From Arenimonas donghaensis DSM 18148 = HO3-R19 (lineage in GTDB: Bacteria > Pseudomonadota > Gammaproteobacteria > Xanthomonadales > Xanthomonadaceae): a stretch of DNA of 64,000 nucleotides. The notes below the pieces were generated by a model, which was not told where the DNA came from, did not search any database, and saw only the letters and a program-made list of their open reading frames with translations. Below are positions 1 to 14,155 of the stretch, piece by piece (positions within the stretch are counted from its first letter, which is position 1; each line of letters opens with the position of its first letter). A program made the position numbers and the translations under genes. Location of the stretch: contig NZ_AVCJ01000043.1 in the NCBI RefSeq assembly GCF_000743535.1, positions 62,001-126,000 on the forward strand, given 5' to 3'.

Positions 1-1
1 C

Positions 2-1099
2 TTCCATGCACGGCTGGTATCCCGGGGAATCAGTTTGTTCACCGGCGTCCCTGATTCACTGCTCAAGAACTTCTGCGCGTGCGTGGAGGATGCGTCCGCC
101 CAGGGCCAGCACGTCATCGCCGCGAACGAGGGAAATGCCGTTGCGATCGCCTTGGGCCATCACCTGGCCACCGGCAAGCGTGCCCTGGTCTACATGCAGA
201 ATTCGGGTCTCGGCAATTCCGTCAATCCGCTGACATCGCTGGCGCACGCGCAGGTCTACCGCGTGCCGATGCTCCTGGTCGTTGGCTGGCGCGGTGAACC
301 AGGCGTGCCGGATGAACCCCAGCACGTCATGCAGGGCCGGGTCACCCCGTCGCAGCTGGAGCTGCTGGAGATCCCGCATTGGATACTGGAAGCGGACAGC
401 GACATCGACGCGGTGCTCGACCAGGCGTTCTCGGCCCTGGACGCCAGCAACGCGCCGGTGGCGCTCCTGGTCCGGAAGGACGCCTTCGCCGACTACAGGT
501 CATCGCGCAAGCCCGACCGCAAGGCCCACCTGGGGCGCGAGCAGGCGCTGCGCCAGCTCCTCGCCCTGGCAGGCGACGCCCTCGTCGTGTCGACCACCGG
601 CAAGACGTCGCGGGAGGTCTTTGAACTGCGTGTCGAAGCCGGGACTGCCCAGCGCGACTTCCTGACCGTGGGAGGGATGGGGCACACGTCCTCGATCGCA
701 CTCGGCGTAGCCTTGGGAAATCCCGAACGCCAGGTCGTCTGCCTGGACGGCGATGGCTCCGCCCTCATGCACCTTGGGGCCATGGCGATCATCGGTGACC
801 TCAAGCCGGGCAACCTCCTGCACGTACTGCTCAACAACGCCGCGCACGAATCCGTCGGCGGACAGCCCACCGTCGCCGGCGGCATGGACTTCCGTGCGAT
901 TTCGCTCGCGTGCGGCTACGCGGCCTACGAGCGTGCCGGCGACGAAGCCGGGATCGAAGCGGCATGGCAACGGCTTGCCTCGGCGCCAGGGCCGGCATTG
1001 TTGGAAATCGACATCTCAGTGGGATCCCGTGCCGACCTGGGGCGACCGACGAGCTCGCCCGAGGAAAACAAGCTGGCCTTCATGCGGTTCGCGCGATGA
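2..1099 (+). CDS. aepY: Phosphonopyruvate decarboxylase, 5'-truncated
   Basis: This ThDP enzyme converts phosphonopyruvate to phosphonoacetaldehyde, the step that makes C-P bond formation by PEP mutase irreversible. The reading frame is open back to base 2, and residues before FTGVPDSLL continue the family's N-terminal helix, so the true start lies left of the window. Visible motifs are FTGVPDSLL near the N terminus, the EGNAV element around the ThDP glutamate, the GDGS...NN thiamine-diphosphate motif in the C-terminal half, and the family hallmark HESVGGQPT. The visible length (about 365 residues) is close to the usual 375-400. Its stop overlaps the next ATG (ATGA at 1096-1099), so the two genes are probably co-translated. 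The PEP mutase gene is expected just upstream, outside the window. Confidence 0.9.
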   Translation, partial: FHARLVSRGISLFTGVPDSLLKNFCACVEDASAQGQHVIAANEGNAVAIALGHHLATGKRALVYMQNSGLGNSVNPLTSLAHAQVYRVPMLLVVGWRGEPGVPDEPQHVMQGRVTPSQLELLEIPHWILEADSDIDAVLDQAFSALDASNAPVALLVRKDAFADYRSSRKPDRKAHLGREQALRQLLALAGDALVVSTTGKTSREVFELRVEAGTAQRDFLTVGGMGHTSSIALGVALGNPERQVVCLDGDGSALMHLGAMAIIGDLKPGNLLHVLLNNAAHESVGGQPTVAGGMDFRAISLACGYAAYERAGDEAGIEAAWQRLASAPGPALLEIDISVGSRADLGRPTSSPEENKLAFMRFAR

Positions 1100-2214
1100 A
1101 GCCGGCGCAAGGCCACTGGGAGCATTTCAACCCGGTCCGGGTGGTTGCCGGCGCGGGCACGCTGGCTCAATTGCCGCGATTGCTGCCCGAAAGTGGTTCG
1201 ATCCTGCTGGTGACGACACCGGGATTCACCCGTCGCGGCGTGACGGGACGCGTTCTCGAGCTCCTCGGCCATGCCGCCGGCCGGCAAGTCGTCGTGAGTG
1301 ATTCGATCACGCCGAATCCGGAGCTCGACGACCTCGACGCCATGGCGCACGGGCACGCCTCGCTGGCGCCCTGCGCGGTTGTGGCGCTGGGTGGCGGCAG
1401 TGCGATCGACGCGGGCAAGGTGCTTGCCGCCATTCTCGGTTCACCGGAGCCAAGGCCCTTGCACAGGACCTTTCGTGAGGGCGCGACGGCGCGTTGGAAC
1501 CGGCACATCCCCATGGTGGCGGTGCCGACAACCGCGGGTACCGGCTCCGAGGCGACCCCCTTCGCGACGGTCTGGGACCCACGCACCCACCGAAAGTATT
1601 CGGTAAGCGGTGAGTCCGTTTACCCGCACGCCGCGATCCTTGACCCGGAACTGACCCTGGACCTGGGCGAGGACCACACCCTCTTTCCGGCACTGGACAC
1701 GGTTTCGCATGCACTGGAGTCGCTGTGGAACGTGCATGCCACGCCGATGAGCGAGGCCCTGGCCCTGCAGGCGCTTCGGCTGTCGGTCGACAACCTTCCG
1801 CGCGTGCTCGCCGACGGCGGCGATCTGCCTGCCCGCGCCGGAATGCAGCAGGCAAGCTATCTCGCCGGCCAGGCGATAAGCACGACCCGCACCGCGCTTG
1901 CGCACTCCATTTCCTATCCCTTGACGCTGCACCACGGCATGCCGCATGGACTGGCCTGCAGTTTCACCCTGCCCGCGCTGCTGCGGAAGTTCGGGCCCCG
2001 ATTGGGCACGGACGGTGAACGGCAGGCGCTCCTGCAGCGCGTCGGGGCGCTCCTCGGTCAGCTGCGGCTTCACGACAAGGTCAGCAGGTTCGCCACCGCC
2101 GAACAGGTCCTGGCACGACTCCCCCAGATGTTTACGCCGGAACGCGCCGGCAACTTCCTGTTCGAGGCGGACGTCGAAAGCTTGCTGCGCGAATCCCTGG
2201 AAGCCCGCGGATGA
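1096..2214 (+). CDS. Iron-containing alcohol dehydrogenase, probable phosphonoacetaldehyde reductase
   Basis: This is a group III metal-dependent alcohol dehydrogenase of 372 residues. Directly after phosphonopyruvate decarboxylase it would most simply reduce phosphonoacetaldehyde to 2-hydroxyethylphosphonate, as PhpC-type enzymes do. Visible motifs are the nucleotide-binding GGGSAIDAGK (about residues 96-105), the TTAGTGSEAT segment, and metal-ligand histidines in VSHALES and HSISYPLTLHHGMPHG. The ATG at 1096 was chosen because it makes an ATGA overlap with the upstream stop, although the frame stays open further 5'. The next gene starts with another ATGA overlap (2211-2214). The window has no aminotransferase that would favour aminoethylphosphonate instead. 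Family assignment is firm; the substrate is inferred from context. Confidence 0.85.
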   Translation: MKPAQGHWEHFNPVRVVAGAGTLAQLPRLLPESGSILLVTTPGFTRRGVTGRVLELLGHAAGRQVVVSDSITPNPELDDLDAMAHGHASLAPCAVVALGGGSAIDAGKVLAAILGSPEPRPLHRTFREGATARWNRHIPMVAVPTTAGTGSEATPFATVWDPRTHRKYSVSGESVYPHAAILDPELTLDLGEDHTLFPALDTVSHALESLWNVHATPMSEALALQALRLSVDNLPRVLADGGDLPARAGMQQASYLAGQAISTTRTALAHSISYPLTLHHGMPHGLACSFTLPALLRKFGPRLGTDGERQALLQRVGALLGQLRLHDKVSRFATAEQVLARLPQMFTPERAGNFLFEADVESLLRESLEARG

Positions 2215-3914
2215 TCTCTGACCTCAAGGCGGTGTGGTTCCTGTTCACGCCCAGGGAGCGGCGAAAGGCCAGCTTCATGCTGGTACTGGTGATCCTCATG
2301 GCGGGTGCGGAGACTTTGGGCGTGCTGTCGATCATGCCCTTCCTCACGGTCGTCAGCCGGCCGGAGGTGATGCACGAAAACGAACTGCTCCAGGCCGCCT
2401 ACCAGTGGCTCGGTTTCGAGAATGAGCGGGACTTCGCCATTGCGCTGGGCCTGCTCTCGATTCTCACGGTCGTCCTGTCTTCTGCGTTCAAGACGGTCAC
2501 CCTGCACCTGATAAATCGCTTCGTGCACTTGCAGCGTCACTCGATCAGCGCCCGCCTGCTTTCGCGCTACCTGCACCAACCCTACGAGTTTTTCCTGACC
2601 CGGAACCCGGCCATCCTCGGGAAGAACGTGCTTTCCGAGATCGATCAGCTACTGGTCAACCTGATCAAACCCCTGTCGCAGATGGTGGCGCAAGGCGCGG
2701 TCGTGGTCGCCATGACGCTGCTGATCTTCTACTACGACCCCCTGACGGCCGCGAGCATCGTGGCCGTCATCGGCCTTCTGTATGGCGCCATCTACGCTTC
2801 GGTGCGAAATCGCCTCGCCCGGATCAGCGTGGAACGCCAGCAGGCCAGCGGTGACCGCCACCAGGCCTGTGCCGAAGCCTTGGGTGGCATCAAGGACGTG
2901 CAAGCTTCCCACTCGGCGCCGGCCTATCAGCGCAAGTTCGATGCAGCCTCCCGCCTCTATGCACGCCACCTTGCCGCCAGCGACACCCTGAGCCAGTCCC
3001 CGCTCTACCTGGTCGAAGCCATCGGCTACAGCATGCTGATCACTGTCGCGCTGGTGCTCCTGATGCGCTCGGGCGACGTTGGCCTGGTACTCCCCGCCCT
3101 TGGGCTCTATGGATTCGCAGCCTTCAGGATGCTGCCGGCCGCGCAGATCATTTATCGAGGGGCCGCCAAACTCAAGTTCTCGACGGCCGCGCTGGACTCG
3201 CTTCGCCGCGACCTCGCGCTTCCGCAGAGCGCACCGCCCCCGGCCAGCGCGCCCCTGGTTCCGCAGCGCGAGATCCGCCTCTCGGACGTCAGCTACGCCT
3301 ATCCATCGGCGCCGGAGCGACGAGTCCTCGATGGCTTCAACCTGGTTGTCCCTGCCAACGAAAGCATCGGCCTCGCCGGTCGCAGTGGGGCCGGCAAGAG
3401 CACGATCATGGATATCCTGCTTGGCTTGCTGCGCCCGCACTCGGGCACGCTGAGCGTCGATGGCGTGCCCATCGACGCCGAAAACCTCCCTGCCTGGCAG
3501 CGGGCCATCGGCTTCGTTCCCCAGCACATCTACCTTGCCGACGCGAGCATCGCCGAAAACATCGCGTTCGGCGTGGACACGGCGGCGATCGACATGCAGG
3601 CGGTGGAGCGGGCAGCGCGCGCCGCGCAGATCCATGATTTCGTCGTCGCCGAACTGCCGCGGGCCTACGACACGGAAGTAGGCGACCGCGGCATCCGCCT
3701 GTCCGGCGGCCAGCGCCAGCGCCTTGGCATCGCGCGTGCGCTCTACCGGGACCCCCCGGTACTCTTTTTCGACGAGGCCACCAGCGCGCTCGACGGCGAA
3801 ACCGAAGAAGCCGTCAATGAGGCGATCCGGACCCTATCCGGGCAGAAGACCATCGTGGTCATCGCACACAAGGAATCGTCCCTGCGCTACTGCCAGCGGG
3901 TGGTGAACCTGTGA
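2211..3914 (+). CDS. ABC transporter, fused permease-ATPase (MsbA/PglK-like lipid-linked glycan flippase)
   Basis: A 567-residue half-transporter with an N-terminal membrane domain (residues about 1-330, several hydrophobic segments) and a C-terminal ATPase domain. Walker A GRSGAGKST is near residue 390, the signature LSGGQRQRLGIARAL near 497, Walker B VLFFDEATSALD near 518, and the H-loop in VIAHKESS near the end. This architecture is typical of exporters that flip lipid A or undecaprenyl-linked oligosaccharides. Its place inside a phosphonate operon (ATGA overlap before it, GTGA overlap after it) suggests it flips a phosphonate-bearing lipid-linked glycan. That cargo is an inference; the ABC exporter assignment is secure. 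Confidence 0.88.
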   Translation: MISDLKAVWFLFTPRERRKASFMLVLVILMAGAETLGVLSIMPFLTVVSRPEVMHENELLQAAYQWLGFENERDFAIALGLLSILTVVLSSAFKTVTLHLINRFVHLQRHSISARLLSRYLHQPYEFFLTRNPAILGKNVLSEIDQLLVNLIKPLSQMVAQGAVVVAMTLLIFYYDPLTAASIVAVIGLLYGAIYASVRNRLARISVERQQASGDRHQACAEALGGIKDVQASHSAPAYQRKFDAASRLYARHLAASDTLSQSPLYLVEAIGYSMLITVALVLLMRSGDVGLVLPALGLYGFAAFRMLPAAQIIYRGAAKLKFSTAALDSLRRDLALPQSAPPPASAPLVPQREIRLSDVSYAYPSAPERRVLDGFNLVVPANESIGLAGRSGAGKSTIMDILLGLLRPHSGTLSVDGVPIDAENLPAWQRAIGFVPQHIYLADASIAENIAFGVDTAAIDMQAVERAARAAQIHDFVVAELPRAYDTEVGDRGIRLSGGQRQRLGIARALYRDPPVLFFDEATSALDGETEEAVNEAIRTLSGQKTIVVIAHKESSLRYCQRVVNL

Positions 3915-5317
3915 GCCGGGCAGGCATTCCGCTTCCGTGGGTGTTCGAACTCCTGCTGACCAACCTAAAACGCGCGTCGATCTTCGTGCTGCAGGCGGGC
4001 GTGACAACGGCCAGCCTCGTCCACCTGGGTGGATCTGCGCTATCCCGCCTGGGCCTTCGCCGCCTTGCCATGCCACTGCTCGACGGCTCGATCGCGATCG
4101 GCGATCGCTCGCGAAGTCGACGGATCTTCCAGGTCAGGCAGTCCTGGGAGTTTTCCGCGGAGAGGAATCGTCACCTGCTCGGTCGCGCACGCGTCGAGGA
4201 TCCGTTGTTCGCGGTGTCTGTTTCACCCCAGGCCGACTCACGTCCTGCAGGGGCACGACGAATGGCGGAGGGTTATTACGAAGTGTCGGTCTCGCATCGG
4301 GGACTACGGGTAGACGGGTTCCTGAGGCGGCCCGGCGGTACGCGGCAGGTCGAGGTGCGACTCAATGGCGTCCGCATCCGTGAAACCGAGGCCGTGCGCA
4401 TCGTTCCGGGACTGGACGTCTTCGTCGTGCAGATCCAACGGGACGCCCTGGCCAGGTTTCCTGCCAGGACCAGGCTGACCGTCTCGCTTGCGGGTGGCGG
4501 GCCCCTGCTGTTCAAGGGCTGCACTGATGCCGTGGTGGATGTTCCGCATGGCGCCGGGGACGATCCGGAAAACATCCGGATCGACAAGAAGGGGTTTCTC
4601 GTCCAGGGCCAGGCCGGCCTGGCGGAACTACAGGAGGGTTTCCTCGCCACTTATTCCGCGGCGAGCGCCTTTTTCCACAGGGAGTTTGGAACGCCGCTGT
4701 TCCTGCTTTACGGCACCCTGCTGGGACAGCAGCGCGGCGCCGACTTCATTCCCGGTGATGACGACTTCGACGTCGGCTATTGGTCCGATGCCGGCAACGC
4801 AAGCCGGGTCCGGGACGAGGCCATGGACCTTGTCGTGCGGCTCGTGCGGGGCGGCTTCGTCGTGACCCTCAACCGGGAAGGAAGACTGTTCCGCCTTCGA
4901 CTGCCGGGCAACCCACCCGCATGCCATCTCGACGTGCATGCCGTCTGGCACGAGAAGGGCAGCGTCTGGATACATCCCCGGGCCAACCTGGACTGCAAGC
5001 GCGGGGACTTCCTGCCAGCGATGGACTCGACGATGCGTGGCATCGACGTCCTGGTGCCGGCACGACCCGAGTCGTTCCTGGCTTCCTACTACGGCAGCGA
5101 CTGGCAGATACCCAACCCGGCCTATTCCACCGCAGCCCGCCCGTTCGCCAAGTGGAAACTTCGCCTGCTTCGCCGCGCGTTCGTAACCCCGTTGGAAGTA
5201 GCACGGATGCAATCGAAAATCGGCGAGCCAGGCGCCCGGGACGAGGGCATGCTGGTGCCGATCGGATCCCAGTCCATCTATCCCCTGGAACGTTACGAGC
5301 AGATTTGCGACTGGTAG
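3911..5317 (+). CDS. LicD-family phosphotransferase with long N-terminal extension
   Basis: A 468-residue protein with a LicD (Fukutin-like nucleotidyltransferase-fold) domain at about residues 255-405. The diagnostic block is LLYGTLLGQQR followed by FIPGDDDFDVGYW (metal-binding aspartates near 283-288); downstream are HLDVHAVW and YYGSDWQIPNP, all typical of LicD proteins. LicD proteins transfer phosphocholine from CDP-choline to surface glycans; here the donor could be a CMP-activated phosphonate. The first 250 residues are not obviously a known domain and include a beta-rich stretch; they may bind the acceptor glycan. The GTG at 3911 overlaps the preceding stop (GTGA). A 57-nt gap follows, containing a TACAAT hexamer (5339-5344) without a convincing -35. 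Confidence 0.8.
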   Translation: MSRAGIPLPWVFELLLTNLKRASIFVLQAGVTTASLVHLGGSALSRLGLRRLAMPLLDGSIAIGDRSRSRRIFQVRQSWEFSAERNRHLLGRARVEDPLFAVSVSPQADSRPAGARRMAEGYYEVSVSHRGLRVDGFLRRPGGTRQVEVRLNGVRIRETEAVRIVPGLDVFVVQIQRDALARFPARTRLTVSLAGGGPLLFKGCTDAVVDVPHGAGDDPENIRIDKKGFLVQGQAGLAELQEGFLATYSAASAFFHREFGTPLFLLYGTLLGQQRGADFIPGDDDFDVGYWSDAGNASRVRDEAMDLVVRLVRGGFVVTLNREGRLFRLRLPGNPPACHLDVHAVWHEKGSVWIHPRANLDCKRGDFLPAMDSTMRGIDVLVPARPESFLASYYGSDWQIPNPAYSTAARPFAKWKLRLLRRAFVTPLEVARMQSKIGEPGARDEGMLVPIGSQSIYPLERYEQICDW

Positions 5318-5374
5318 AGGCTCGCCAGCCAGGCGCTACAATCCCCCAAGCATCCGCACCCCGGGCACCCCACG

Positions 5375-6631
5375 ATGAAGTTCATCTTCGACCTTGATGG
5401 AACGATAACCCGCCAGGAAACGCTTCCGCTCATGGCCGCGCGGTTCGGCATCGAAGATCAGATCGACGCCCTGACCGAGGAGACGATACGGGGAAACATT
5501 CCGTTCATCGAAAGCTTCATCCGTCGTGTCGGCATCCTCGGCCAGTACCCGGTCTCGGAAATGAACCGGTTGCTGTCCGGGATGGAGCTTTTCCAGGGAG
5601 TGGTCGGTTTCATTCAAGAAAACCCCGATGACTGCATCATCGCCACCGGCAACCTGGGACCCTGGATTGAAGGCTTGTGTGCCAGGCTTGGCTGCGGCGT
5701 TCGTTGCTCCGACGCCAATATCGCCGACGACCGGGTCGCGAAGCTCACTTCCATCCTGAGGAAGGAAGACGTCGTCCGGGAATGGAAGGCGAAGGGCGAG
5801 ACCGTCGTTTTCGTCGGCGACGGCAACAATGATGCCGAGGCAATGCGCGAAGCGGACATCTCGATCGCGACCGGAATGGTGCACTGGCCGGCGCGGTCGG
5901 TCCTGGACGTGGCCGACTATGCCGTGTTCGATGAATCCGCCCTGCTTCGCCTGCTGGCGCAGCTGCGTGCCTCCACGCCTTCGCGGGGAAGCAACACGCT
6001 GGTTCTCAGCTGCGCCGGAATGGGATCGAGACTTGGGTTGAACTCGACCAAGGCCTTGATGAACTTCGAGGACCGGCCGTTCGTGCAGTGGCAGATGCAG
6101 GGATTCTCCGGCATCGAGGACGTAAGGGTCGTCGTCGGATTCCAGGCCAAGGACGTGATACTCGCCGTCACCGCGGTTCGTCCTGATGCCGTGTTCGTGT
6201 TCAACCACGACTATTTTTCCACCGGCACGGGATGCAGCCTCTACCTGGGCGCACGACATGCCAACGAGTATGTCATCGCCTGGGACGGCGACCTGATGGT
6301 GCATCACGAGGACCTGGCCGCCTGCCTCGATCACGACGGAGAATACCTGGGCGTCTCGGAAGCTGTGACCGAGGACGCCGTATTCGCACACCTCGATCCC
6401 ACCGGTCACAGCATCGTCGGATTCAGCCGTGAAGACCCCGGAGCCTATGAATGGTCAGGCCCGGCACGATTGCGCCGTGACGACGTCGCCGATGTGCGCG
6501 GCAGCGTTTTCGAAGGCCTGCTGCACCGACTGCCCCTCCCGGCCCTGAAAGTACGCGCATTCGACATCGATACCGTCGCTGACTACCACTACGCGAAAGA
6601 AAACTTCCGGAGCTATATCGGTGGGAAATAA
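5375..6631 (+). CDS. HAD phosphatase-nucleotidyltransferase fusion, candidate phosphonate cytidylyltransferase
   Basis: A 418-residue two-domain protein. The N-terminal half (about 1-200) is a SerB-like HAD phosphatase: nucleophile motif FDLDGTI at residues 5-10, motif II in IIATGN, motif IV GDGNNDAEAM near residue 148. The C-terminal half (about 208-418) is a sugar-nucleotide/LicC-like nucleotidyltransferase: SCAGMGSRLGLNSTKAL supplies the GxGxR...K signature, FSTGTGCSLYLG resembles the LicC/PntC nucleotide pocket, and AWDGDLMV supplies a metal-binding aspartate near 303. In this operon it would fit CTP-dependent activation of 2-hydroxyethylphosphonate for LicD transfer. The HAD domain's substrate is unknown. 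It overlaps the next gene by 11 nt. Domain calls are firm; the pathway role is inferred. Confidence 0.82.
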   Translation: MKFIFDLDGTITRQETLPLMAARFGIEDQIDALTEETIRGNIPFIESFIRRVGILGQYPVSEMNRLLSGMELFQGVVGFIQENPDDCIIATGNLGPWIEGLCARLGCGVRCSDANIADDRVAKLTSILRKEDVVREWKAKGETVVFVGDGNNDAEAMREADISIATGMVHWPARSVLDVADYAVFDESALLRLLAQLRASTPSRGSNTLVLSCAGMGSRLGLNSTKALMNFEDRPFVQWQMQGFSGIEDVRVVVGFQAKDVILAVTAVRPDAVFVFNHDYFSTGTGCSLYLGARHANEYVIAWDGDLMVHHEDLAACLDHDGEYLGVSEAVTEDAVFAHLDPTGHSIVGFSREDPGAYEWSGPARLRRDDVADVRGSVFEGLLHRLPLPALKVRAFDIDTVADYHYAKENFRSYIGGK

Positions 6632-7259
6632 CAACATACGCAACTACTACGACCAACTCGCCGAGCGCATCGAGTCCGCCGAAGGCACCCGCAACAAGGC
6701 GCCCGATTCGAGTGAATTCGACGCGGCGTACATGCGCGAATTCGCCAAGCCCGAGGGCAGCCTGCTTGAGCTGGGCGCGGGAACCGGCCTGCTGCTCAAC
6801 CGGATCATGGATGGCTACCGGCGCGTCGTCGCCGTCGAGCTCTATCCGCAGTTCTCGCGCTTCATAACCCGGGCAAACCACGTCGAAGTGGTCACCGCCG
6901 ACCTCCTGACCTACGACACCGAGGAGACCTTCGACGTCGTGGCGCTGTTCGGCGTGATGAACTTCTTCAGTGAGGGCGAGGCAACGGACCTCTACAGGCG
7001 CGTGGCACGCTGGCTCAAACCTGGCGGAAAGCTGGTCGTGAAGAACCAGATGGGCGTCGCGGAAGATGTGATGGTCGATGGCATTTCCCAGGAGCTGGGA
7101 ACCCACTACTACTCCGAGTACCGCACCCCGGGCCACGAGGCCAGGCTGATCGAAAAAGGCGGCCTGCAGGTCGTTCGCCAGGACGACATCTACCCTGATC
7201 GGCTGAATCGCTGGCCGAACACGCGTTTCATCGCATTGCTGGCCACTCGTCCGACTTGA
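6621..7259 (+). CDS. Class I SAM-dependent methyltransferase
   Basis: A 212-residue methyltransferase with the SAM-binding motif LLELGAGTGLLL near residues 49-60, an acidic ribose-binding position in VVAVELYP, and post-motif segments DVVALFGVMNFF and LKPGGKLVVKNQ. It starts at a GTG inside the end of the HAD/nucleotidyltransferase gene (11-nt overlap), so it belongs to the phosphonate operon. It could methylate the phosphonate, a sugar or an intermediate. O- and C-methylation are both known in phosphonate pathways, but nothing in the sequence fixes the acceptor. Confidence 0.78.
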   Translation: MGNNNIRNYYDQLAERIESAEGTRNKAPDSSEFDAAYMREFAKPEGSLLELGAGTGLLLNRIMDGYRRVVAVELYPQFSRFITRANHVEVVTADLLTYDTEETFDVVALFGVMNFFSEGEATDLYRRVARWLKPGGKLVVKNQMGVAEDVMVDGISQELGTHYYSEYRTPGHEARLIEKGGLQVVRQDDIYPDRLNRWPNTRFIALLATRPT

Positions 7260-7276
7260 AGGGAGCACCGCAGGCG

Positions 7277-8305
7277 ATGCCGAGCAAGCAGATGGCCAGA
7301 CCGCCGAAGTCCACGGAAGCCGGTTACGTCGCCTGCCCGGTCGACGATTTGTTCGAGTCGCTTTGTGCGGTCCACGAGATTCTCGAGGACCTGGGCGTCG
7401 AGTACGTCGTTTCCGGCGGCACTTTGCTCGGGGCGGTACGCCAGCGGGACCTGCTCGAGAACGACACGGACTGGGACATCGAGATCATCGATACGGGTGT
7501 CGAGGCGGTGCTTGGCGCCCGCGACGCATTCGCCAGCCGTGGCCTGGTGCTGGAGTTTCCGGTGACCCGCGAGGTGACGTCGTTCCGGGACGGCAGCCCC
7601 TCCCCCGGCGAAGTCGAACGACGCATCATCAAGGTCCGGGACGACCGCGGGAGATTCCATGGCGACCTGTTCATCCAGACCCTGTTCTCGGACGGGATCC
7701 TCCGGCGGTTCAACGTCGAAGCCGGCGCGTATTTCAACGCGAAGATGACGTTCCCCTACTGGTTCGTGGAGAACCGGTGCAAGGTATCGATACGCGATCG
7801 CGAGTTCCATGCCCCCATGGCCCCCGAGCTCATGCTCGAACGCATCTATGGCCCGCGCTGGCGAATCCCTTACAAGCGCCACGGCCCTCGAATCAAGGGC
7901 TACAACTTCGCTGGCGCCTACAAGGACGCACCCATCGTGCCGGGCCTTCGGCTCGCCTTGTCACAGGGCTGGGTTCCGCGCTATCCGGGGCGGCCACACT
8001 GGCCGCGGGAAATCCATTGGATCGACAACCACACCACGTCCGATTGGATCAAGCGCCATGAACACGTCGCCGGCCTTCCGGCCGTGGCATTGGAGCAAGG
8101 AACCGACATCGATGCCGCCAACGCCCGACTGATCGCCTGCTACCGCATCCTGCTCGACGAACTGCAGCAGGACAAGGAGCGGCTTTCGGAGTACGAATCC
8201 CGCACTCCCGTGCGTCTGCTGAACGCGCTAATCGGCGCGATCCGCGAGTCGCTCTTCGACGCCTGGATCGCGCTCCAGAACCTGCGGGCAATGCTTCGTC
8301 GCTAG
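7277..8305 (+). CDS. Second LicD-family phosphotransferase
   Basis: A 342-residue LicD-like protein without the long N-terminal extension of the first copy. The LicD signature is YVVSGGTLLGAVR (about 44-56) followed by LENDTDWDIEI (about 60-70), with metal-binding aspartates in DTDWD. Later LERIYGPRWRIPYKR is the usual C-terminal LicD motif, with the YGxxW core. The ATG at 7277 was preferred, with GGGAG upstream, over a TTG at 7256 that would overlap the previous stop. A weak hairpin follows the gene. Two divergent LicD proteins in one operon suggest two attachment steps or two acceptors; this is inference. Confidence 0.8.
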   Translation: MPSKQMARPPKSTEAGYVACPVDDLFESLCAVHEILEDLGVEYVVSGGTLLGAVRQRDLLENDTDWDIEIIDTGVEAVLGARDAFASRGLVLEFPVTREVTSFRDGSPSPGEVERRIIKVRDDRGRFHGDLFIQTLFSDGILRRFNVEAGAYFNAKMTFPYWFVENRCKVSIRDREFHAPMAPELMLERIYGPRWRIPYKRHGPRIKGYNFAGAYKDAPIVPGLRLALSQGWVPRYPGRPHWPREIHWIDNHTTSDWIKRHEHVAGLPAVALEQGTDIDAANARLIACYRILLDELQQDKERLSEYESRTPVRLLNALIGAIRESLFDAWIALQNLRAMLRR

Positions 8306-8358: not shown

Positions 8359-9525
8359 TTACCGGGAGAGGTGAAGCCTCAGCCGTTCAAGGCAGCGCTG
8401 GCTCGCCATCCCGTCGGGACGGTCCCCATAGACTTCCGCGAGCACCTGCCGCGGCCTGTCACCCACCTCGGCACGGTAGCTGGCCGGTTCGGCGAGATAG
8501 CGTCGAACGGCATCCAGCATGGCCTGCATGTCGCCCACCACCCTCCCGAACCGATACTCCGGCCCAAGCGAGAAGCCCTTCCGGAACGGTGGCTCGACGT
8601 CCAGGAAGATCGTGGGCCGGCCGAGCAGCAGATAGTCGAAGGCGATCGACGACCAGTCGCAGATGAGCAGGTCGCTCAGCGCCAACAAGGCTTCGGTATC
8701 GGGATACTCCGCGAACGGCACGTAGACCACGTCGTCCGGCGGCGCCGTGGCATGCCTGCCGCTGTTGAGGTGTTTCCTGACCAGGAGCGTCGCTCCGTGC
8801 GCACGGCACTCGCCGGCCAGCTTTTCGAGGAAATCCGACTCCTCCAGACCAAACGGAAACAGGCTCCTGTTGCTTGAATCCTGTTTCCACGTCGGCGCGA
8901 ACAGCACCAGCCGCGTGGACGGCAGCGCCGCGAGTCCGAACCGCTCGAGCTCCTCCATGCGACCGGCCCGGGGCAGAACCAGCGGATCGGTGCGGGCATA
9001 CCCGGTGATCCGGACCCGGTCCGGGTCGAAGCCGAACCTGGTTTCGTACAACTGCTTGTGAAGCGGGGAAGCCACCCAGACTTCGTCATACCCATGCTGC
9101 ACGCGGAAGTCATCGGCATCGAAGCCCTTGAAGGGAATGCCATGCCAGACGTCGAAGAACTTGAGGCTGCTCCTTCCGACCATCCATGCGAGGACATGCA
9201 GGCCATGGTCGCTGATGACGGCCTTCGCCTCGGCCAGCAGGGTGGCGCTGGCGATCGAGCCCGCCAGGCAGCTCCTCACGCCCGCGCCAGCCAGCTGCGC
9301 GTGATAGTCCGGATCCATGGTCAGGAAGGTCGGCTCCAGGTCGCTGGATGCCACCATGGCCCGATGGATTTCGAGCAGGTTCCCCGACAGCTTGTGTCCG
9401 TAGAGCACGACTTTCGGCCGCTGCTGGCGACGACCGGATCTGCGCAGCAGCCAGGCAAGCAACACCATCGATCCGAAGCGCAATAGCCGGAACCAGTGGC
9501 TTGGCTTTGATTTGTCTACTTTCAT
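8359..9525 (-). CDS. CDP-glycerol glycerophosphotransferase family protein (TagB/TagF-like)
   Basis: A 388-residue protein of the teichoic-acid glycerophosphotransferase family. Key motifs are WHGIPFKG (catalytic histidine region, about residue 140), a GYARTDPLV segment, FAPTWKQDS, and CDWSSIAFDYLLLGRPTIF near residues 290-310, corresponding to the family's donor-binding SS motif. A short hydrophobic stretch near the N terminus (VLLAWLL) may anchor it to the inner membrane. Family members transfer polyol phosphate from CDP-linked donors. In a Gram-negative this suggests a phosphopolyol- or phosphonate-decorated capsule or O-antigen. The ATG at 9525 overlaps the preceding stop (ATGA 9522-9525); an open frame upstream of it is the neighbouring gene's region. 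Confidence 0.85.
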   Translation of the reverse strand: MKVDKSKPSHWFRLLRFGSMVLLAWLLRRSGRRQQRPKVVLYGHKLSGNLLEIHRAMVASSDLEPTFLTMDPDYHAQLAGAGVRSCLAGSIASATLLAEAKAVISDHGLHVLAWMVGRSSLKFFDVWHGIPFKGFDADDFRVQHGYDEVWVASPLHKQLYETRFGFDPDRVRITGYARTDPLVLPRAGRMEELERFGLAALPSTRLVLFAPTWKQDSSNRSLFPFGLEESDFLEKLAGECRAHGATLLVRKHLNSGRHATAPPDDVVYVPFAEYPDTEALLALSDLLICDWSSIAFDYLLLGRPTIFLDVEPPFRKGFSLGPEYRFGRVVGDMQAMLDAVRRYLAEPASYRAEVGDRPRQVLAEVYGDRPDGMASQRCLERLRLHLSR

Positions 9526-11435
9526 TCGGGTTTCCCGGCAGGCCCGCCAGCCTTGTGCAGCACGTAGATGAGGGTCGGGAACAGCCTGCGCAGGGCGCGG
9601 TAGACCTGGTCGGGAATGGGCTTGAGTACCCATCGATACACGGTCGAAGCCGGCCGTTCAATTTCGTAGGTCAGTCTCAGGGCCTGGCCATGGCATTGCG
9701 TGAACCGGAAGCCGGCCCCCGCCAATGCGCGCTCGATACGAGGCACGGTGGCCGGGCGGCAGTCGTAGTGCGTTCCCTTTCCGGACCACCTGACGTAGCG
9801 ATCCGCCAGCGGGCCCGGCAGCCAGCTCAGCAACGGCAGTTTGAAGTGCGGCTCGACCAACATCCATCGATTGGGCACGGCCAGGTAGCCGGTGCCGTCG
9901 GGTCGGAGCACCCGCGCGATTTCAGCCAGGTGCCGGGCCTGCGCGTCGTCATCGCCGACGTGTTCGATCACGTGGTTTGAAACCACGACATCGAAACTCG
10001 CGTCCGGATACGGCAGCTCAACGCCATCGACGAGGGTGAACCGGTAGCCGTCCTTGCAGATCCGGTTGTCGCTGACGTCCACCGCGTCCACGTCCCAGTT
10101 CATGGTCCCGGCCGCACCGAAATAGTGGGCGATGCCGCCGGCACCCGTACCCACCTCGAGCAGACGCCGCGGCGCGGCGCCGGGTTCGAGCCCCAGCAGG
10201 CGCGCGATCTTGATTGCTTTCCGCTTCCTCGACGCCATGCCCGTGGCCGCATGGCCGGACCGGGCCGGCTCCTGGCGGGCCGCGCCCAGGAGGTCGGCGT
10301 AGGCCTTGGCCCGCGGACCCCAGTCGAATCGTGCGACGGCGGCGGGGTCGGCCGCGCCCCCTTGCATGGCTTTGACGATGACCTCGGCCAGCCGCACGGG
10401 GTCGCGCGGATCGACCTGCCCACCGTTGCCACCGATCACGTCGCGTACCGCGGGCACATCACCCGCGACCACCGGGCATCCGCAGCCGATGGCCTCGACC
10501 ATGACCAACCCAAGCCCCTCCTGGTCCCCGTCCCTTGCCGCGACGAAAGGAACGACCAGGGCCGCCGCCGATCGATACAGATCCGGCAGCCGCTCGTGGG
10601 ACACCGGCCCCAGGAACTCAATGGAGCCCGACAGCCCAAGGCTTTCTCGAAGGGCGCGCAATTCGGGCTCGCAGGAGCCGAACCCGGCGATGTCGAGCCG
10701 GGCGGTCGGAATGCGCTCCAGCACATGCGGCCAGGCCCTGATCAGATGGTCGACGCCCTTTTTTTCCACCAGGCGGCCCACGAACAAGGCCCGGGATGGT
10801 GATCGCTGCACGTCGGGTTTCGGGCAGAACGTCCCGACCAGGTCTACTCCCATCGGCTCCACGACCACGTCGCAGGTCGAGCCCAGCGCCTTGATCGCCG
10901 GCAGCATTGCGTGGCTCACCACGGTGGCCAGGTCCGCACGCCCCAGCACGAATCGCTTCAGCACCCGGAATGGCCAGGCCCCCAGGGAAAACAAGTCGGC
11001 GCCGTGCGAGGTCACGACGAACCGGGGCCTCTTTCGTGCCACGGCAAGCGCCAAGGCCGCCGCCAGTCCCTGTGGAACCAGCCAATGGGCATGGACTACG
11101 TCCGGCCGGTAGCTGCGAACCAGCCTGGCCGTAGTGAATACCTGGCTGAGCAAGAAACCAGGCACGAGCAGCCATTTCCACTTCGATTTTTTCAGGTTTC
11201 CCAGGATCCCCCCATCGTTCACCAGGGTCTGGAGCCGGTCCGGGGCATAGCGATAGCGCACGACCCGGACACCCTCCATGGTTTCCTCCCGCGTGCTGCC
11301 CGGTGAGTGCGGGCACAAGACCAGCACATCGAACTGCGCGGCCAGGCGCGTGCAGAGCGCGTGGACGAAGCCGGGCTCCGGATCCCCGGTCCAGCGCGGG
11401 TAGGTCGACGCCAGCACCAACAAGCGGGGACGCAT
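9522..11435 (-). CDS. GT4 glycosyltransferase fused to a SAM methyltransferase
   Basis: About 637 residues in two domains. The first 380 or so are a GT-B group 1 (GT4) glycosyltransferase: LVLASTYPRWTGDPEPGFV at the N terminus, HAHWLVPQG, LFVGRLVEKKGVDHLI, and the donor-site block EGLGLVMVEAIGCGCPVV with the family's paired glutamates. The last 240 are a class I methyltransferase: LLEVGTGAGGIAHYFG, FDVVVSNHVIEHVGDD, LRPDGTGYLAVPNRW. The ATG at 11435 gives a canonical N terminus; a GTG at 11453 would overlap the upstream gene by 8 nt and is possible. It lies between the DPM1-like GT2 and TagB-like genes on the same strand. One polypeptide may add and then methylate a sugar; the reaction is inferred. 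Confidence 0.85.
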   Translation of the reverse strand: MRPRLLVLASTYPRWTGDPEPGFVHALCTRLAAQFDVLVLCPHSPGSTREETMEGVRVVRYRYAPDRLQTLVNDGGILGNLKKSKWKWLLVPGFLLSQVFTTARLVRSYRPDVVHAHWLVPQGLAAALALAVARKRPRFVVTSHGADLFSLGAWPFRVLKRFVLGRADLATVVSHAMLPAIKALGSTCDVVVEPMGVDLVGTFCPKPDVQRSPSRALFVGRLVEKKGVDHLIRAWPHVLERIPTARLDIAGFGSCEPELRALRESLGLSGSIEFLGPVSHERLPDLYRSAAALVVPFVAARDGDQEGLGLVMVEAIGCGCPVVAGDVPAVRDVIGGNGGQVDPRDPVRLAEVIVKAMQGGAADPAAVARFDWGPRAKAYADLLGAARQEPARSGHAATGMASRKRKAIKIARLLGLEPGAAPRRLLEVGTGAGGIAHYFGAAGTMNWDVDAVDVSDNRICKDGYRFTLVDGVELPYPDASFDVVVSNHVIEHVGDDDAQARHLAEIARVLRPDGTGYLAVPNRWMLVEPHFKLPLLSWLPGPLADRYVRWSGKGTHYDCRPATVPRIERALAGAGFRFTQCHGQALRLTYEIERPASTVYRWVLKPIPDQVYRALRRLFPTLIYVLHKAGGPAGKPE

Positions 11436-11445
11436 CCTCAACTCA

Positions 11446-12297
11446 CTACTCACGCCGGTAGGTCAAGGAGGTGATCTGCTCCGATACCAGCCCGATGAGG
11501 AAGATGATCACGGCGGCACTGAAAAGCAGCGTGCTCATGTTGGTGAACCGGTTCATCGTGATGTAGGTGTATGCGTAGTAACTCAGCCCGGTCAGGAAAA
11601 ACGCCACCGCCGTCGGCGCGAACAGCTTGAGCGGTGAATAAAGCGTGGCGATCTTGAAAATGATCAGCAGGAACCGCACGCCGTCGCGCAGCGGGCGGAT
11701 GTGGCTGTTCTGGCCCACCCGCCTGGCCACCTGCACGGGCACGTAGGCCACCGGGTAGGCGCTCCGGAAGAAGGCCATGGTGCAGGTGGTCGGGTAGCTG
11801 AACCCATTGGGCAGCAGGTGCAGGAAATCCCGGAACTTGGTGGCGTTCACGGCCCGGAAGCCGGAGGTCAGGTCCTTGATGGCATGGCCCGTCATCCAGG
11901 TGGCCAGCCGGTTGTACAGCCCGTTGGCGAAGCTTCGGCCCACGCTTGCCTGGCCGCTGCCGTCCCGCGCCGCCACCACCATGTCGAAGCCCTCGTCCAG
12001 GCGCGCCAGCAGCCCCGGAATATCCCCGGGGTCATGCTGGCCGTCCGCGTCCATGAACACCAGGGTCTCCCCCTGGGCCGCCCGGGCCCCGCGCTTGATC
12101 GCCGCCCCGTTGCCCATCGAATACGGGGAGCCCAGCACCTTTGCCCCGGCGGCCCTGGCCACCTCGGCGGTTTCGTCCGTGGAACCGTCATCCACCACGA
12201 TCACTTCGGCGTCGGGCAACACCCGGAACAGGGCCGGCAATGTCCTGCGCAGGCCCTCGGCCTCGTTCTTGGCAGGGAGGATGACGCTGATCTTCAT
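11446..12297 (-). CDS. DPM1-like GT2 glycosyltransferase with C-terminal membrane segments
   Basis: A 283-residue family 2 glycosyltransferase of the dolichyl/polyprenyl-phosphate type. The N terminus has ILPAKNEAEGLRRTLP, the nucleotide-binding VVDDGSTDET and the DXD-like MDADGQHDPGD. Residues about 220-280 form two hydrophobic segments (LFAPTAVAFFLTGLSYYAY and a following LLFSAAVIIFLIGL). Such enzymes load a sugar onto undecaprenyl phosphate for periplasmic transfer. It is the first gene of the minus-strand glycan operon. Its start faces pilB across 133 nt that must hold both promoters; no consensus promoter is clear there. Confidence 0.85.
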   Translation of the reverse strand: MKISVILPAKNEAEGLRRTLPALFRVLPDAEVIVVDDGSTDETAEVARAAGAKVLGSPYSMGNGAAIKRGARAAQGETLVFMDADGQHDPGDIPGLLARLDEGFDMVVAARDGSGQASVGRSFANGLYNRLATWMTGHAIKDLTSGFRAVNATKFRDFLHLLPNGFSYPTTCTMAFFRSAYPVAYVPVQVARRVGQNSHIRPLRDGVRFLLIIFKIATLYSPLKLFAPTAVAFFLTGLSYYAYTYITMNRFTNMSTLLFSAAVIIFLIGLVSEQITSLTYRRE

Positions 12298-12430: not shown

Positions 12431-14155
12431 GTGAACGCCAACGCAACTGCCAATCTGGTGGGTATCACCGGCATCGCCCGGCGCCTGGTGCTGGACGGGC
12501 ACCTGGCCGAGGCCGATGCCCGCAAGGCGCTGGACGAGGCGACCAAGGCCAAGCAGCCGGTCTCGCGCTACCTGATGGACAAGAAGCTGGCCACGTCGGC
12601 GCAGATCGCCGGGGCCAACGCGGTCGAGTTCGGCATGCCGCTGTTCGATGCCACCGCCCTGGACCTGAACCAGGCCGCCACCAAGCTCGTCAGCGAAGAA
12701 CTGATCAACAAGCATGTGGCCCTGCCGCTGTTCAAGCGCGGCAACCGGCTGTTCGTGGGCATTTCCGACCCCACCAACACCCGGGCCCTGGACGAGATCA
12801 AGTTCGCCGCCAACCTCACCGTCGAACCCATCCTGGTCGACGAGGACAGGCTCAAGAAAACCATCGACCAGGCCCTGACGGCCTCGGATTCGATGGGCGA
12901 CGCCATGGAGGACGCCGAGGGCCTGGAAAACCTCGAGGCCACCGGCGGCGACGACGACACCGCCGACAACCTGGCCGACTCCAAGGGCAGCGACGACACC
13001 CCGGTGGTGCGCTTCGTCAACAAGGTGCTGCTCGACGCGATCAAGCGCGGCTCGTCGGACATCCACTTCGAACCCTACGAAAACGAGTTCCGGGTGCGCC
13101 TGCGCATGGACGGCATCCTGCGCAACGTCGCCAAGGCCCCGGTGAAGCTGCACCAGCGCATCACCGCCCGCCTGAAGGTCATGGCCTCGCTGGACATCGC
13201 CGAGCGCCGCCTGCCCCAGGACGGCCGCATCAAGCTCAACATCTCCAAGACCCGGCAGATGGACTTCCGCGTCTCCACCTGCCCCACCCTGTTCGGCGAA
13301 AAGGTGGTGCTGCGCCTGCTCGACGGCAGCGCCGCCAAGCTGGGCATCGACAAGCTGGGCTACGAAGACGACCAGAAGCAGATCTACCTCGACGCCCTGG
13401 CCAAGCCCTACGGCATGATCCTGGTCACCGGCCCCACCGGCTCGGGTAAAACCGTGTCGCTGTATACCGGCCTGAACATCCTCAACACCGAGGAACGCAA
13501 CATCTCCACCGCCGAGGACCCGGTCGAAATCCGCGTCCCGGGCATCAACCAGGTGCAGATGAACGTCAAGAAGGGCATGACCTTCGCCGCGGCCCTGCGC
13601 AGCTTCCTGCGACAGGATCCGGACGTGATCATGGTCGGCGAAATCCGCGACCTGGAAACGGCCGAGATCGCCATCAAGGCGGCCCAGACGGGCCACCTGG
13701 TGCTCTCGACCCTGCACACCAACGACGCCCCCCAGACCGTCAGCCGCCTGATGAACATGGGCATCGCGCCCTACAACATCACGTCCTCGGTCACGGTCAT
13801 CATCGCCCAGCGCCTGGCCCGTCGCCTGCACGACTGCAAGCAGCCCGTGCAGCTGCCGGAAAACGCCCTGCTGGCGGAAGGCTTCACCGCCGAAGACATC
13901 GCCCAGGGCATCACCCTGTACGAACCCGTCGGCTGCGACGACTGCAACGACGGCTACAAGGGCCGCGTGGGCATCTACCAGGTGATGCCCATGGCCGAGA
14001 ACATCCAGAAGATCATCCTCGAGGGCGGCAACGCCCTCCAGATTGCCGAGGCGGCCGAACAGGCCGGCGTTCGAGACCTCCGCAAGTCTGCCCTTTGGAA
14101 GGCCAGGCAGGGCGTCACCAGCCTGGCCGAAGTCAATCGCGTGACCAAGGACTAA
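12431..14155 (+). CDS. pilB: Type IV pilus assembly ATPase PilB
   Basis: The cytoplasmic extension ATPase of the type IV pilus (574 residues, normal length). An N-terminal MshE-like domain is followed by the GspE/PilB ATPase: Walker A GPTGSGKT near 334-341, Asp-box EDPVEIR, Walker B DPDVIMVGEIRD, His-box HLVLSTLHTNDA. The zinc finger usually has two CxxC pairs; here the second is intact (GCDDCNDGYKGR) but the first reads RRLHDCKQ, leaving one cysteine plus a histidine. The GTG start is preceded by GGAGGAAG. It heads pilB-pilC-pilD-coaE. No pilin gene lies upstream; the glycan island occupies that place. Confidence 0.96.
   Translation: MNANATANLVGITGIARRLVLDGHLAEADARKALDEATKAKQPVSRYLMDKKLATSAQIAGANAVEFGMPLFDATALDLNQAATKLVSEELINKHVALPLFKRGNRLFVGISDPTNTRALDEIKFAANLTVEPILVDEDRLKKTIDQALTASDSMGDAMEDAEGLENLEATGGDDDTADNLADSKGSDDTPVVRFVNKVLLDAIKRGSSDIHFEPYENEFRVRLRMDGILRNVAKAPVKLHQRITARLKVMASLDIAERRLPQDGRIKLNISKTRQMDFRVSTCPTLFGEKVVLRLLDGSAAKLGIDKLGYEDDQKQIYLDALAKPYGMILVTGPTGSGKTVSLYTGLNILNTEERNISTAEDPVEIRVPGINQVQMNVKKGMTFAAALRSFLRQDPDVIMVGEIRDLETAEIAIKAAQTGHLVLSTLHTNDAPQTVSRLMNMGIAPYNITSSVTVIIAQRLARRLHDCKQPVQLPENALLAEGFTAEDIAQGITLYEPVGCDDCNDGYKGRVGIYQVMPMAENIQKIILEGGNALQIAEAAEQAGVRDLRKSALWKARQGVTSLAEVNRVTKD

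Follow-up and report, generated by a model that had tools for sequence, protein, structure and literature searches.

A probable 2-hydroxyethylphosphonate-tailoring operon in the type IV pilin locus of Arenimonas donghaensis

This analysis concerns an operon at the left end of a 64,000-nucleotide stretch of the Arenimonas donghaensis DSM 18148 genome (the window; positions 62001-126000 of contig NZ_AVCJ01000043.1, here C43, one of the 51 that make up the 2.98 Mb draft genome, here G000). An earlier note, made from the letters of the window, had proposed that genes for a phosphonopyruvate decarboxylase (Ppd), an iron-containing alcohol dehydrogenase (ADH), an ATP-binding cassette (ABC) exporter, two LicD proteins, a HAD/nucleotidyltransferase (HAD/NT) and a methyltransferase form a single plus-strand operon that decorates a surface glycan with 2-hydroxyethylphosphonate (HEP). 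All seven genes are present in the run from 2 to 8305, each matches its own family, and their spacing is tight, with overlaps of 4 or 11 bases and one 57-base gap (5317 to 5375) as the sole exception. The unit extends past this run, to pepM on the left and to minus-strand genes (8359-12297) on the right, and the operon sits between pilin genes and pilB. The locus holds an intact-looking HEP-tailoring operon within a pilin-glycan locus, and on balance we think it probable that a module making cytidine monophosphate-activated HEP (CMP-HEP) has been inserted into a variable pilin-glycosylation locus. The features are listed below, in window positions unless C43 is given.

C43:60075-60494, pilA2, at the left border of the locus, then two GT-C-like membrane proteins, pilA1, pilR and pilS
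C43:60686-61984, plus strand, left of the window: pepM, a Fom1-type cytidylyltransferase domain fused to a phosphoenolpyruvate (PEP) mutase, 432 residues from an ATG (TIGR02320, 409.4 bits against a cut-off of 319.55)
1-1099, plus strand, start outside the window at C43:61981: ppd, phosphonopyruvate decarboxylase (TIGR03297, 465.5 bits against 312.5)
1096-2214, plus strand: iron-containing ADH, proposed phosphonoacetaldehyde reductase yielding HEP (PF00465/PF25137), third in the pepM-ppd-ADH trio
2211-3914, plus strand: ABC exporter, proposed lipid-linked glycan flippase (nearest NF050066, PglK, 300 bits, far below the cut-off of 1000)
3911-5317, plus strand: LicD1, proposed CMP-HEP phosphonotransferase (PF04991, 23.2 bits against 22.6, E 8.3e-5)
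5375-6631, plus strand: HAD/NT, a HAD-IB phosphatase fused to a LicC-like nucleoside triphosphate transferase (PF12710/PF00702 and PF12804, NTP_transf_3)
6621-7259, plus strand: S-adenosylmethionine-dependent class I methyltransferase, possible partner of HAD/NT (PF13649, 3.2e-12)
7256-8305, plus strand: LicD2, LicD-like, possible partner of the HAD/NT product (NF045866, 8.7e-11, below cut-off; motif GGTLLG...DTDWD)
8359-9525, minus strand: TagB/TagF-like protein, rival candidate for HEP transfer (PF04464, 121.6 bits against 22.1)
9522-11453, minus strand: GT4 glycosyltransferase-methyltransferase fusion (PF13692, 3.4e-30; PF08241, 6.9e-16)
11446-12297, minus strand: GT2 glycosyltransferase with two C-terminal membrane helices, in our reading polyprenyl-phosphate-sugar-synthase-like (PF00535, 3.2e-30)
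12431-14155, plus strand: pilB, the right border of the locus

The ADH probably starts at the ATG at 1096, which overlaps the stop codon of ppd as ATGA, and the PF04464 protein probably at the ATG at 9525, within a 424-residue frame spanning 8359-9633. Of the two proteins proposed as LicD, LicD1 is just over its Pfam cut-off; LicD2 matches no Pfam family at 0.001 and resembles LicD only by its motif and its NF045866 match. A sigma-70 promoter scan returned 0 sites against 1.2 expected, and a sigma-54-like pattern showed no excess over shuffles (18 against 26 expected; 13 against 13), with none between pilA2 and pepM.

The presence of pepM immediately left of the window had been set beforehand as a test of the phosphonate proposal, and the gene is there, ending 16 bases from the window with its stop overlapping the ppd start. 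Residues 3-137 of PepM form a cytidylyltransferase domain (PF01467, 51.9 bits against a cut-off of 21) whose best solved relative is PDB 5x3d (E 6.9e-59, 203 bits, 89 of 135 residues or 66% identical), an entry deposited as a phosphoenolpyruvate phosphomutase, which we take to be the Fom1 domain from Streptomyces wedmorensis. HPGH and ISST are preserved relative to 5x3d, and the PEP mutase motif EDKxxxxxNS is present as EDKTGLKKNS and preserved in all five aligned sequences. The Fom1 domain is reported to make CMP-HEP (PMC6697681). By its architecture the A. donghaensis protein is predicted to be a bifunctional Fom1-type PepM/cytidylyltransferase that forms CMP-HEP from HEP and cytidine triphosphate; CMP-HEP is the product expected from this domain, an iron ADH and a Ppd that exceeds its cut-off. 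A second PEP-mutase-like match in the genome (contig C50) scores below the cut-off.

The route from PEP through phosphonopyruvate and phosphonoacetaldehyde to HEP, anticipated in the earlier note, is the best reading of these genes and the pathway appears well supported, because PepM and Ppd exceed curated cut-offs, an ADH-like gene occurs in 73 of 80 related loci (the best 80 of 531 relatives in a genome-contig scan with a five-row PepM alignment) and no 2-aminoethylphosphonate (AEP) transaminase in the genome exceeds its cut-off (none of three TIGR03301 matches; best 37.1 bits against 360.8). AEP was rejected as the product on the last of these grounds, and breakdown by carbon-phosphorus (C-P) lyase because the genome has no PhnJ match. 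The action of the ADH on phosphonoacetaldehyde is proposed from gene context only, and the enzyme is not classed as PsrA. That such HEP would be nucleotide-activated and placed on a glycan, as had also been supposed, remains the likely outcome.

A PepM over its cut-off is indeed uncommon in this family: one of the 27 genus genomes sampled has it, and 12 of the 395 family genomes. Five of the 12, one being A. donghaensis, reach 408-412 bits with a longer reading frame. The remaining four of these five (Lysobacter A03, Stenotrophomonas daejeonensis, S. mori and Silanimonas) retain the pepM-ppd-ADH trio, at 69-79, 52-68 and 45-49% identity respectively, next to other glycan genes. A shorter PepM of another kind is found in seven family genomes (G220 and six g18 genomes; loci L028-L034), with 357-380 bits and frames of 280-336 residues; the G368 copy has an internal TGA. 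Within the class, the fused PepM occurs in 6 of 369 genomes at 1e-60, again counting A. donghaensis (the others are G440, G490, G716, G742 and G748). Two gammaproteobacterial genomes have two fused-PepM matches each, G440 on C3 and G490 on C4 and C24 (L208, L213, L212 and L214), those of G490 covering residues 1-334 only. Of the 80 related loci, 78 contain ppd. When 81 PepM proteins are placed in one tree, that of A. donghaensis clusters with Aliidiomarina, Marinospirillum insulare, Stutzerimonas and two desulfo-bacteria (six rows, support 99/95) and separately from the five other Lysobacteraceae rows, and the G+C content of pepM (61.0%) and of the HAD/NT gene (60.7%) stands against 68.8% for the window. 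Lateral acquisition is likely. Fused PepM with ppd and ADH also appears in metagenome contigs labelled Methanomassiliicoccaceae archaea (L171 and L176), which may be real or mis-binned.

The pilin locus was compared across the genus, using the matching region of 20 of the 26 other genomes (G013, G015, G019, G023, G024 and G025 were left out). Both pilA and pilB are visible in 14 of the 20; in 12 of these the interval between them holds other glycan genes, which differ by genome, and in the remaining two (G007 and G016) nothing larger lies between the genes. The GT2 gene beside pilB was recognised in 15 of the 20 loci (73-82% identical), and 13 have a recognisable GT-C-like homologue, several of the stretches being too short to show one. 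No homologue of the window's pepM, ABC, LicD1, HAD/NT or PF04464 protein is found at 1e-5 among the matches listed for the 20 loci. We read the interval between pilA and pilB as a variable pilin-glycan cassette. The GT-C-like proteins carry invariant DD and EHRNY residues across 14 aligned members and are inferred to act on pilin, although their label as glycosyltransferases is putative.

The backbone of the cassette recurs in pil loci elsewhere in the family. Copies of the ABC exporter occupy five others (G111, 62% identical; G224, 69%; G063, 72%; G238, 67%; G327, 61%), and five of the 395 family genomes have the PF04464 protein at 1e-40, in pil loci, the four others being 45-52% identical; among 369 class genomes it was found at 1e-25 in A. 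donghaensis only. A parallel is a pil locus of S. daejeonensis (G238, contig C33), which reads gtcB, ABC exporter (67%), LicD1 (47%), a cytidylyltransferase, PF04464 protein (46%), GT4, GT2 (76%) and pilB. This locus is separate from the pepM contig of the same genome, and no pepM lies on the C33 stretch. Its cytidylyltransferase shares 80% identity with one in the G111 pil locus; the model nearest to the G111 protein is that of glycerol-3-phosphate cytidylyltransferase (GCT; TIGR01518, 110 bits, below the cut-off of 165). The GCT-like protein has no match at 1e-10 in A. donghaensis, G224, G063, G097, G215 or G327, and S. daejeonensis has two further, weaker GCT-like matches elsewhere in its genome. 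The PF04464 backbone is thus paired with a GCT-like gene in two pil loci (G238 and G111) and with the CMP-HEP trio in the window. From these gene orders a swap of donor in the pilin-glycan locus, from cytidine diphosphate (CDP)-glycerol to CMP-HEP, is likely; the reading fits G238 and the window well and is less clean for the other loci. An HEP-specific role for the PF04464 protein was rejected, since some pil loci combine it with a GCT-like gene and others have neither a GCT-like gene nor a pepM over the cut-off.

Two families emerge as candidates for the transfer of HEP, because of what follows the trio and how rarely the two co-occur in the 80 related loci. In the 66 loci where the trio is complete and followed by 600 bases or more, a PF04464-like gene comes next in 18 and a LicD-like gene in 17; one gene counts in both groups, which gives 34 loci in all and leaves 32 with neither. 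Pfam agreed for 16 of the 18 PF04464-like and 15 of 16 LicD-like next genes, the latter set leaving out the double one. Anywhere in the 80 loci, by home-made iterated profiles, 34 have a PF04464-like gene, 28 a LicD-like gene, 4 both and 22 neither, many of the 22 being short stretches. The mutual exclusion (Fisher p 2.8e-4) weakens to p 0.013 over 70 loci once a single row stands for one collapsed Alteromonadales group, and to p 0.025 if only the 48 of these 70 loci that extend 8 kb or more beyond pepM are counted; apart from that collapsed group the statistics ignore kinship, which together with short contigs weakens them. The pattern supports PF04464-type and LicD-type proteins as two alternative HEP transferases. 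In A. donghaensis LicD1 is the most likely agent, and otherwise the PF04464 protein. LicD1 homologues lie beside the GCT-like gene in G238 (47%) and after pepM-ppd-ADH in Roseovarius (L160, 32%). The AlphaFold model of LicD1 has a mean predicted local distance difference test (pLDDT) score of 63, better over the catalytic part, and FKRP chains head its PDB matches (E 9.1e-6, probability 1.00, but a template modelling score of 0.28, near 0.3, and a root-mean-square deviation of about 12); according to a PDB entry title, the solved FKRP structure contains CDP-ribitol and a sugar acceptor.

As a separate observation, a P-loop family with an SGSSAVxD motif, in our reading sulfotransferase-like, lies beside the trio in three loci (L126:13507-14472, L129:8501-9460 and L166:6233-8185, minus strand) and was found in 12 of the 80 by an iterated home-made profile that may have drifted; it may be a third kind of transferase or serve in sulfation.

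The HAD/NT gene, by contrast with its role in the earlier note, is not supported as the HEP activator, since PepM carries the Fom1-type domain and six homologue loci lie in genomes with no PepM over the cut-off. Homologues occur in 7 of 395 family genomes, A. donghaensis included, and in the other six are two adjacent split genes in pil loci. A methyltransferase precedes the HAD-NT pair in four of these (G111, G097, G224 and G327), and a LicD-like gene follows in three of the six. HAD/NT probably makes a second, non-phosphonate activated group. The recurrence of a methyltransferase, HAD-IB and LicC-like nucleotidyltransferase module in family pil loci (window 5375-7259 and the same four genomes) may mark a route to another activated phospho-group.

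The proposed mechanism would begin with the conversion of PEP to phosphonopyruvate by PepM, its decarboxylation to phosphonoacetaldehyde by Ppd and the reduction of the latter to HEP by the iron ADH, whereupon the cytidylyltransferase domain fused to PepM would form CMP-HEP. The GT2 and GT4 enzymes would build a lipid-linked glycan, a phosphotransferase (most likely LicD1, otherwise the PF04464 protein) would move HEP onto a sugar of that glycan, the ABC protein would flip the HEP-bearing product, and one of the two GT-C-like proteins beside pilA would transfer it to pilin. The trio would stand in for the GCT-like gene of the sister loci, while HAD/NT, the methyltransferase and LicD2 might add the second, non-phosphonate group. 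The system would work like a Lic- or CDP-glycerol-style decoration supplied with a phosphonate donor. An independent parallel is found in Alteromonadaceae bacterium Bs31 (L166), whose locus contains pilB (partial), pilA (49%), GT-C-like (29%), GT2 (60%) and ABC exporter (24%) genes, a 650-residue protein, a PF04464 protein (40%), pepM (71%), ppd (58%) and ADH (42%). A wider proposal, possible though somewhat doubtful as a whole, is that the pili of A. donghaensis and, independently, of Bs31 carry HEP glycans, that the acquired trio replaced the CDP-glycerol-making enzyme of a resident cassette, and that LicD- and PF04464-type proteins are interchangeable CMP-HEP phosphonotransferase families.

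Several points weigh against this scheme. A pilin-like gene is present in the flanks of only 1 of the 80 related loci, L166, and this, with the four family trios that lie among other glycan genes, indicates that trio and pili are not generally linked. The GT-C-like proteins match no glycosyltransferase model, Pfam giving weak TPR matches only and a PDB profile search TPR and stray matches, and the single-sequence AlphaFold model of the L166 member is poor (pLDDT 52). The ADH scores 350.2 bits against its best NCBIfam model, the phosphonate-associated TIGR03405 (PsrA), below the cut-off of 423.7. In G224 and G063 the PF04464 protein is accompanied by neither GCT nor a pepM over the cut-off, so that the protein is not tied to one donor. 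The methyltransferase of the window is only 24% identical to that of G111, and LicD2 resembles the G111 LicD over a 40-residue motif stretch only, making the tie of both to the sister modules a weak one. The gene content, family memberships, positions and comparative pattern are observed; the individual reactions, their order, the transferase and pilin as acceptor are predictions from sequence.

The most serious competitor is that HEP is destined for the O-antigen of lipopolysaccharide (LPS), a capsule or another envelope glycan, the position among pil genes being incidental or the lipid-linked glycan being common to pilin and LPS. In Lysobacter A03, S. daejeonensis, S. mori and Silanimonas the trio has glycan genes around it and no recognised pil gene on the stretches examined, and in three of the four an ABC ATPase (ABC_tran confirmed by Pfam in two) is nearby, which we read as an O-antigen exporter. 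Against this, pilin genes and pilB enclose the locus in A. donghaensis, sister genomes have its backbone genes at the same position, and L166 provides a second pil locus with the trio; an envelope destination is considered unlikely. The lipid-linked glycan of the earlier note is retained as the probable carrier, and LPS becomes a less likely acceptor than a pilin glycan because the operon lies in a pilin locus that was outside its view. The version in which HAD/NT activates HEP draws on the distant similarity of its nucleotidyltransferase part to LicC (PDB 1jyk, 5.9e-5, the nearest PDB entry) and on the report that PntC enzymes are LicC-like nucleotidyltransferases near ppm genes (PMC6697681), but the domain in PepM and the six pil loci in genomes without a pepM over the cut-off leave it very unlikely.

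Two further explanations change the end product rather than the acceptor, and both seem very improbable. CMP-HEP is described as the fosfomycin intermediate made by Fom1 (PMC6697681), so the ABC protein might export a free, fosfomycin-like natural product; however, no radical-SAM methylase, oxygenase (epoxidase) or ligase domain is found among the ten locus proteins scanned, on which ground a phosphonate antibiotic cluster was rejected, and the surrounding genes are glycan and pilus genes. Alternatively, the TagF-like enzyme might link HEP units, each of which keeps a free hydroxyl, into a teichoic-acid-like polymer whose backbone has C-P bonds. Its family, PF04464, is that of the CDP-glycerol glycerophosphotransferases and directly follows many trios, as counted above, but the protein here is short (about 388 residues) and over no TarF or TarL cut-off, and close homologues occur without pepM.

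The preferred reading, a CMP-HEP module inserted in a pilin locus, describes a form of phosphonyl tailoring not among the known ones, namely an HEP branch in a pilin locus. A phosphorus-bearing pilin decoration has precedent in Neisseria, whose pilin carries phosphoglycerol. Phosphocholine is added to Neisseria pilin by PptA, for which a lipid donor is indicated (PMC10434233), whereas the present proposal has a CMP-activated donor and a C-P bond. The locus resembles that of Fom1 in the fused architecture of the enzyme, but lacks fosfomycin methylase and epoxidase domains in the scan and has glycan and pilus genes as companions. With the phosphonyl tailoring (Pnt) clusters of Rice et al. 2019 (PMC6697681) it shares a PepM with cytidylyl activation for surface decoration; it differs in following the HEP rather than the AEP branch, in the recurrent PF04464 or LicD next gene and in its pilin setting. 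That paper reports a PF01467 domain in 23.6% of the Ppm proteins surveyed, and treats activation with a cytidylyl group as the central logic of phosphonyl tailoring, terming the later steps unknown. A phosphonoglycoprotein proposal for Prochlorococcus and SAR11 places phosphonates on surface glycoproteins, with recovery in the Prochlorococcus protein fraction and phosphonate genes near those for lipid-linked glycans and an O-oligosaccharyltransferase (Acker et al. 2022, PMC8931226). In the parts of that paper drawn on here no acceptor protein is named, whereas type IV pilin is a specific candidate in A. donghaensis, with GT-C-like proteins instead of PglL. TfpO and TfpW are likewise pilin-associated glycosyltransferases that differ between strain groups; they glycosylate Pseudomonas aeruginosa pilins, where the glycan is reported to hinder phage (PMC11841053). 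Kinship of the GT-C-like proteins to them is putative, and the donor proposed here includes a phosphonate. Among the titles and abstracts listed from the open-licence literature no paper on phosphonylated pili was found (phosphonate or PEP mutase with pilin; CDP-glycerol with pilin); phosphonate with LicD gave Rice et al. only, and PEP mutase with glycerophosphotransferase a single paper, on iron in Bacteroidetes.

Bacterial phosphonate capacity is thought to serve mostly cell-surface decoration, and the locus names a concrete acceptor candidate, type IV pilin, together with two candidate transferase families for the steps after activation. If the proposal is correct, LicD- and PF04464-type proteins would supply the missing step of phosphonyl tailoring, and pili bearing a C-P group that resists phosphatases would matter for phage adsorption, for adhesion and for the HEP supplied to dissolved organic phosphorus. 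The G238 sister locus, with its GCT-like gene, offers a natural control.

Beside these genes, a 1007-residue membrane protein is encoded on the minus strand between pilR and pilA1 (G000:C43:52256-55279; L003), and homologues of 54-62% identity are found in 5 of the 20 genus loci among the matches listed.

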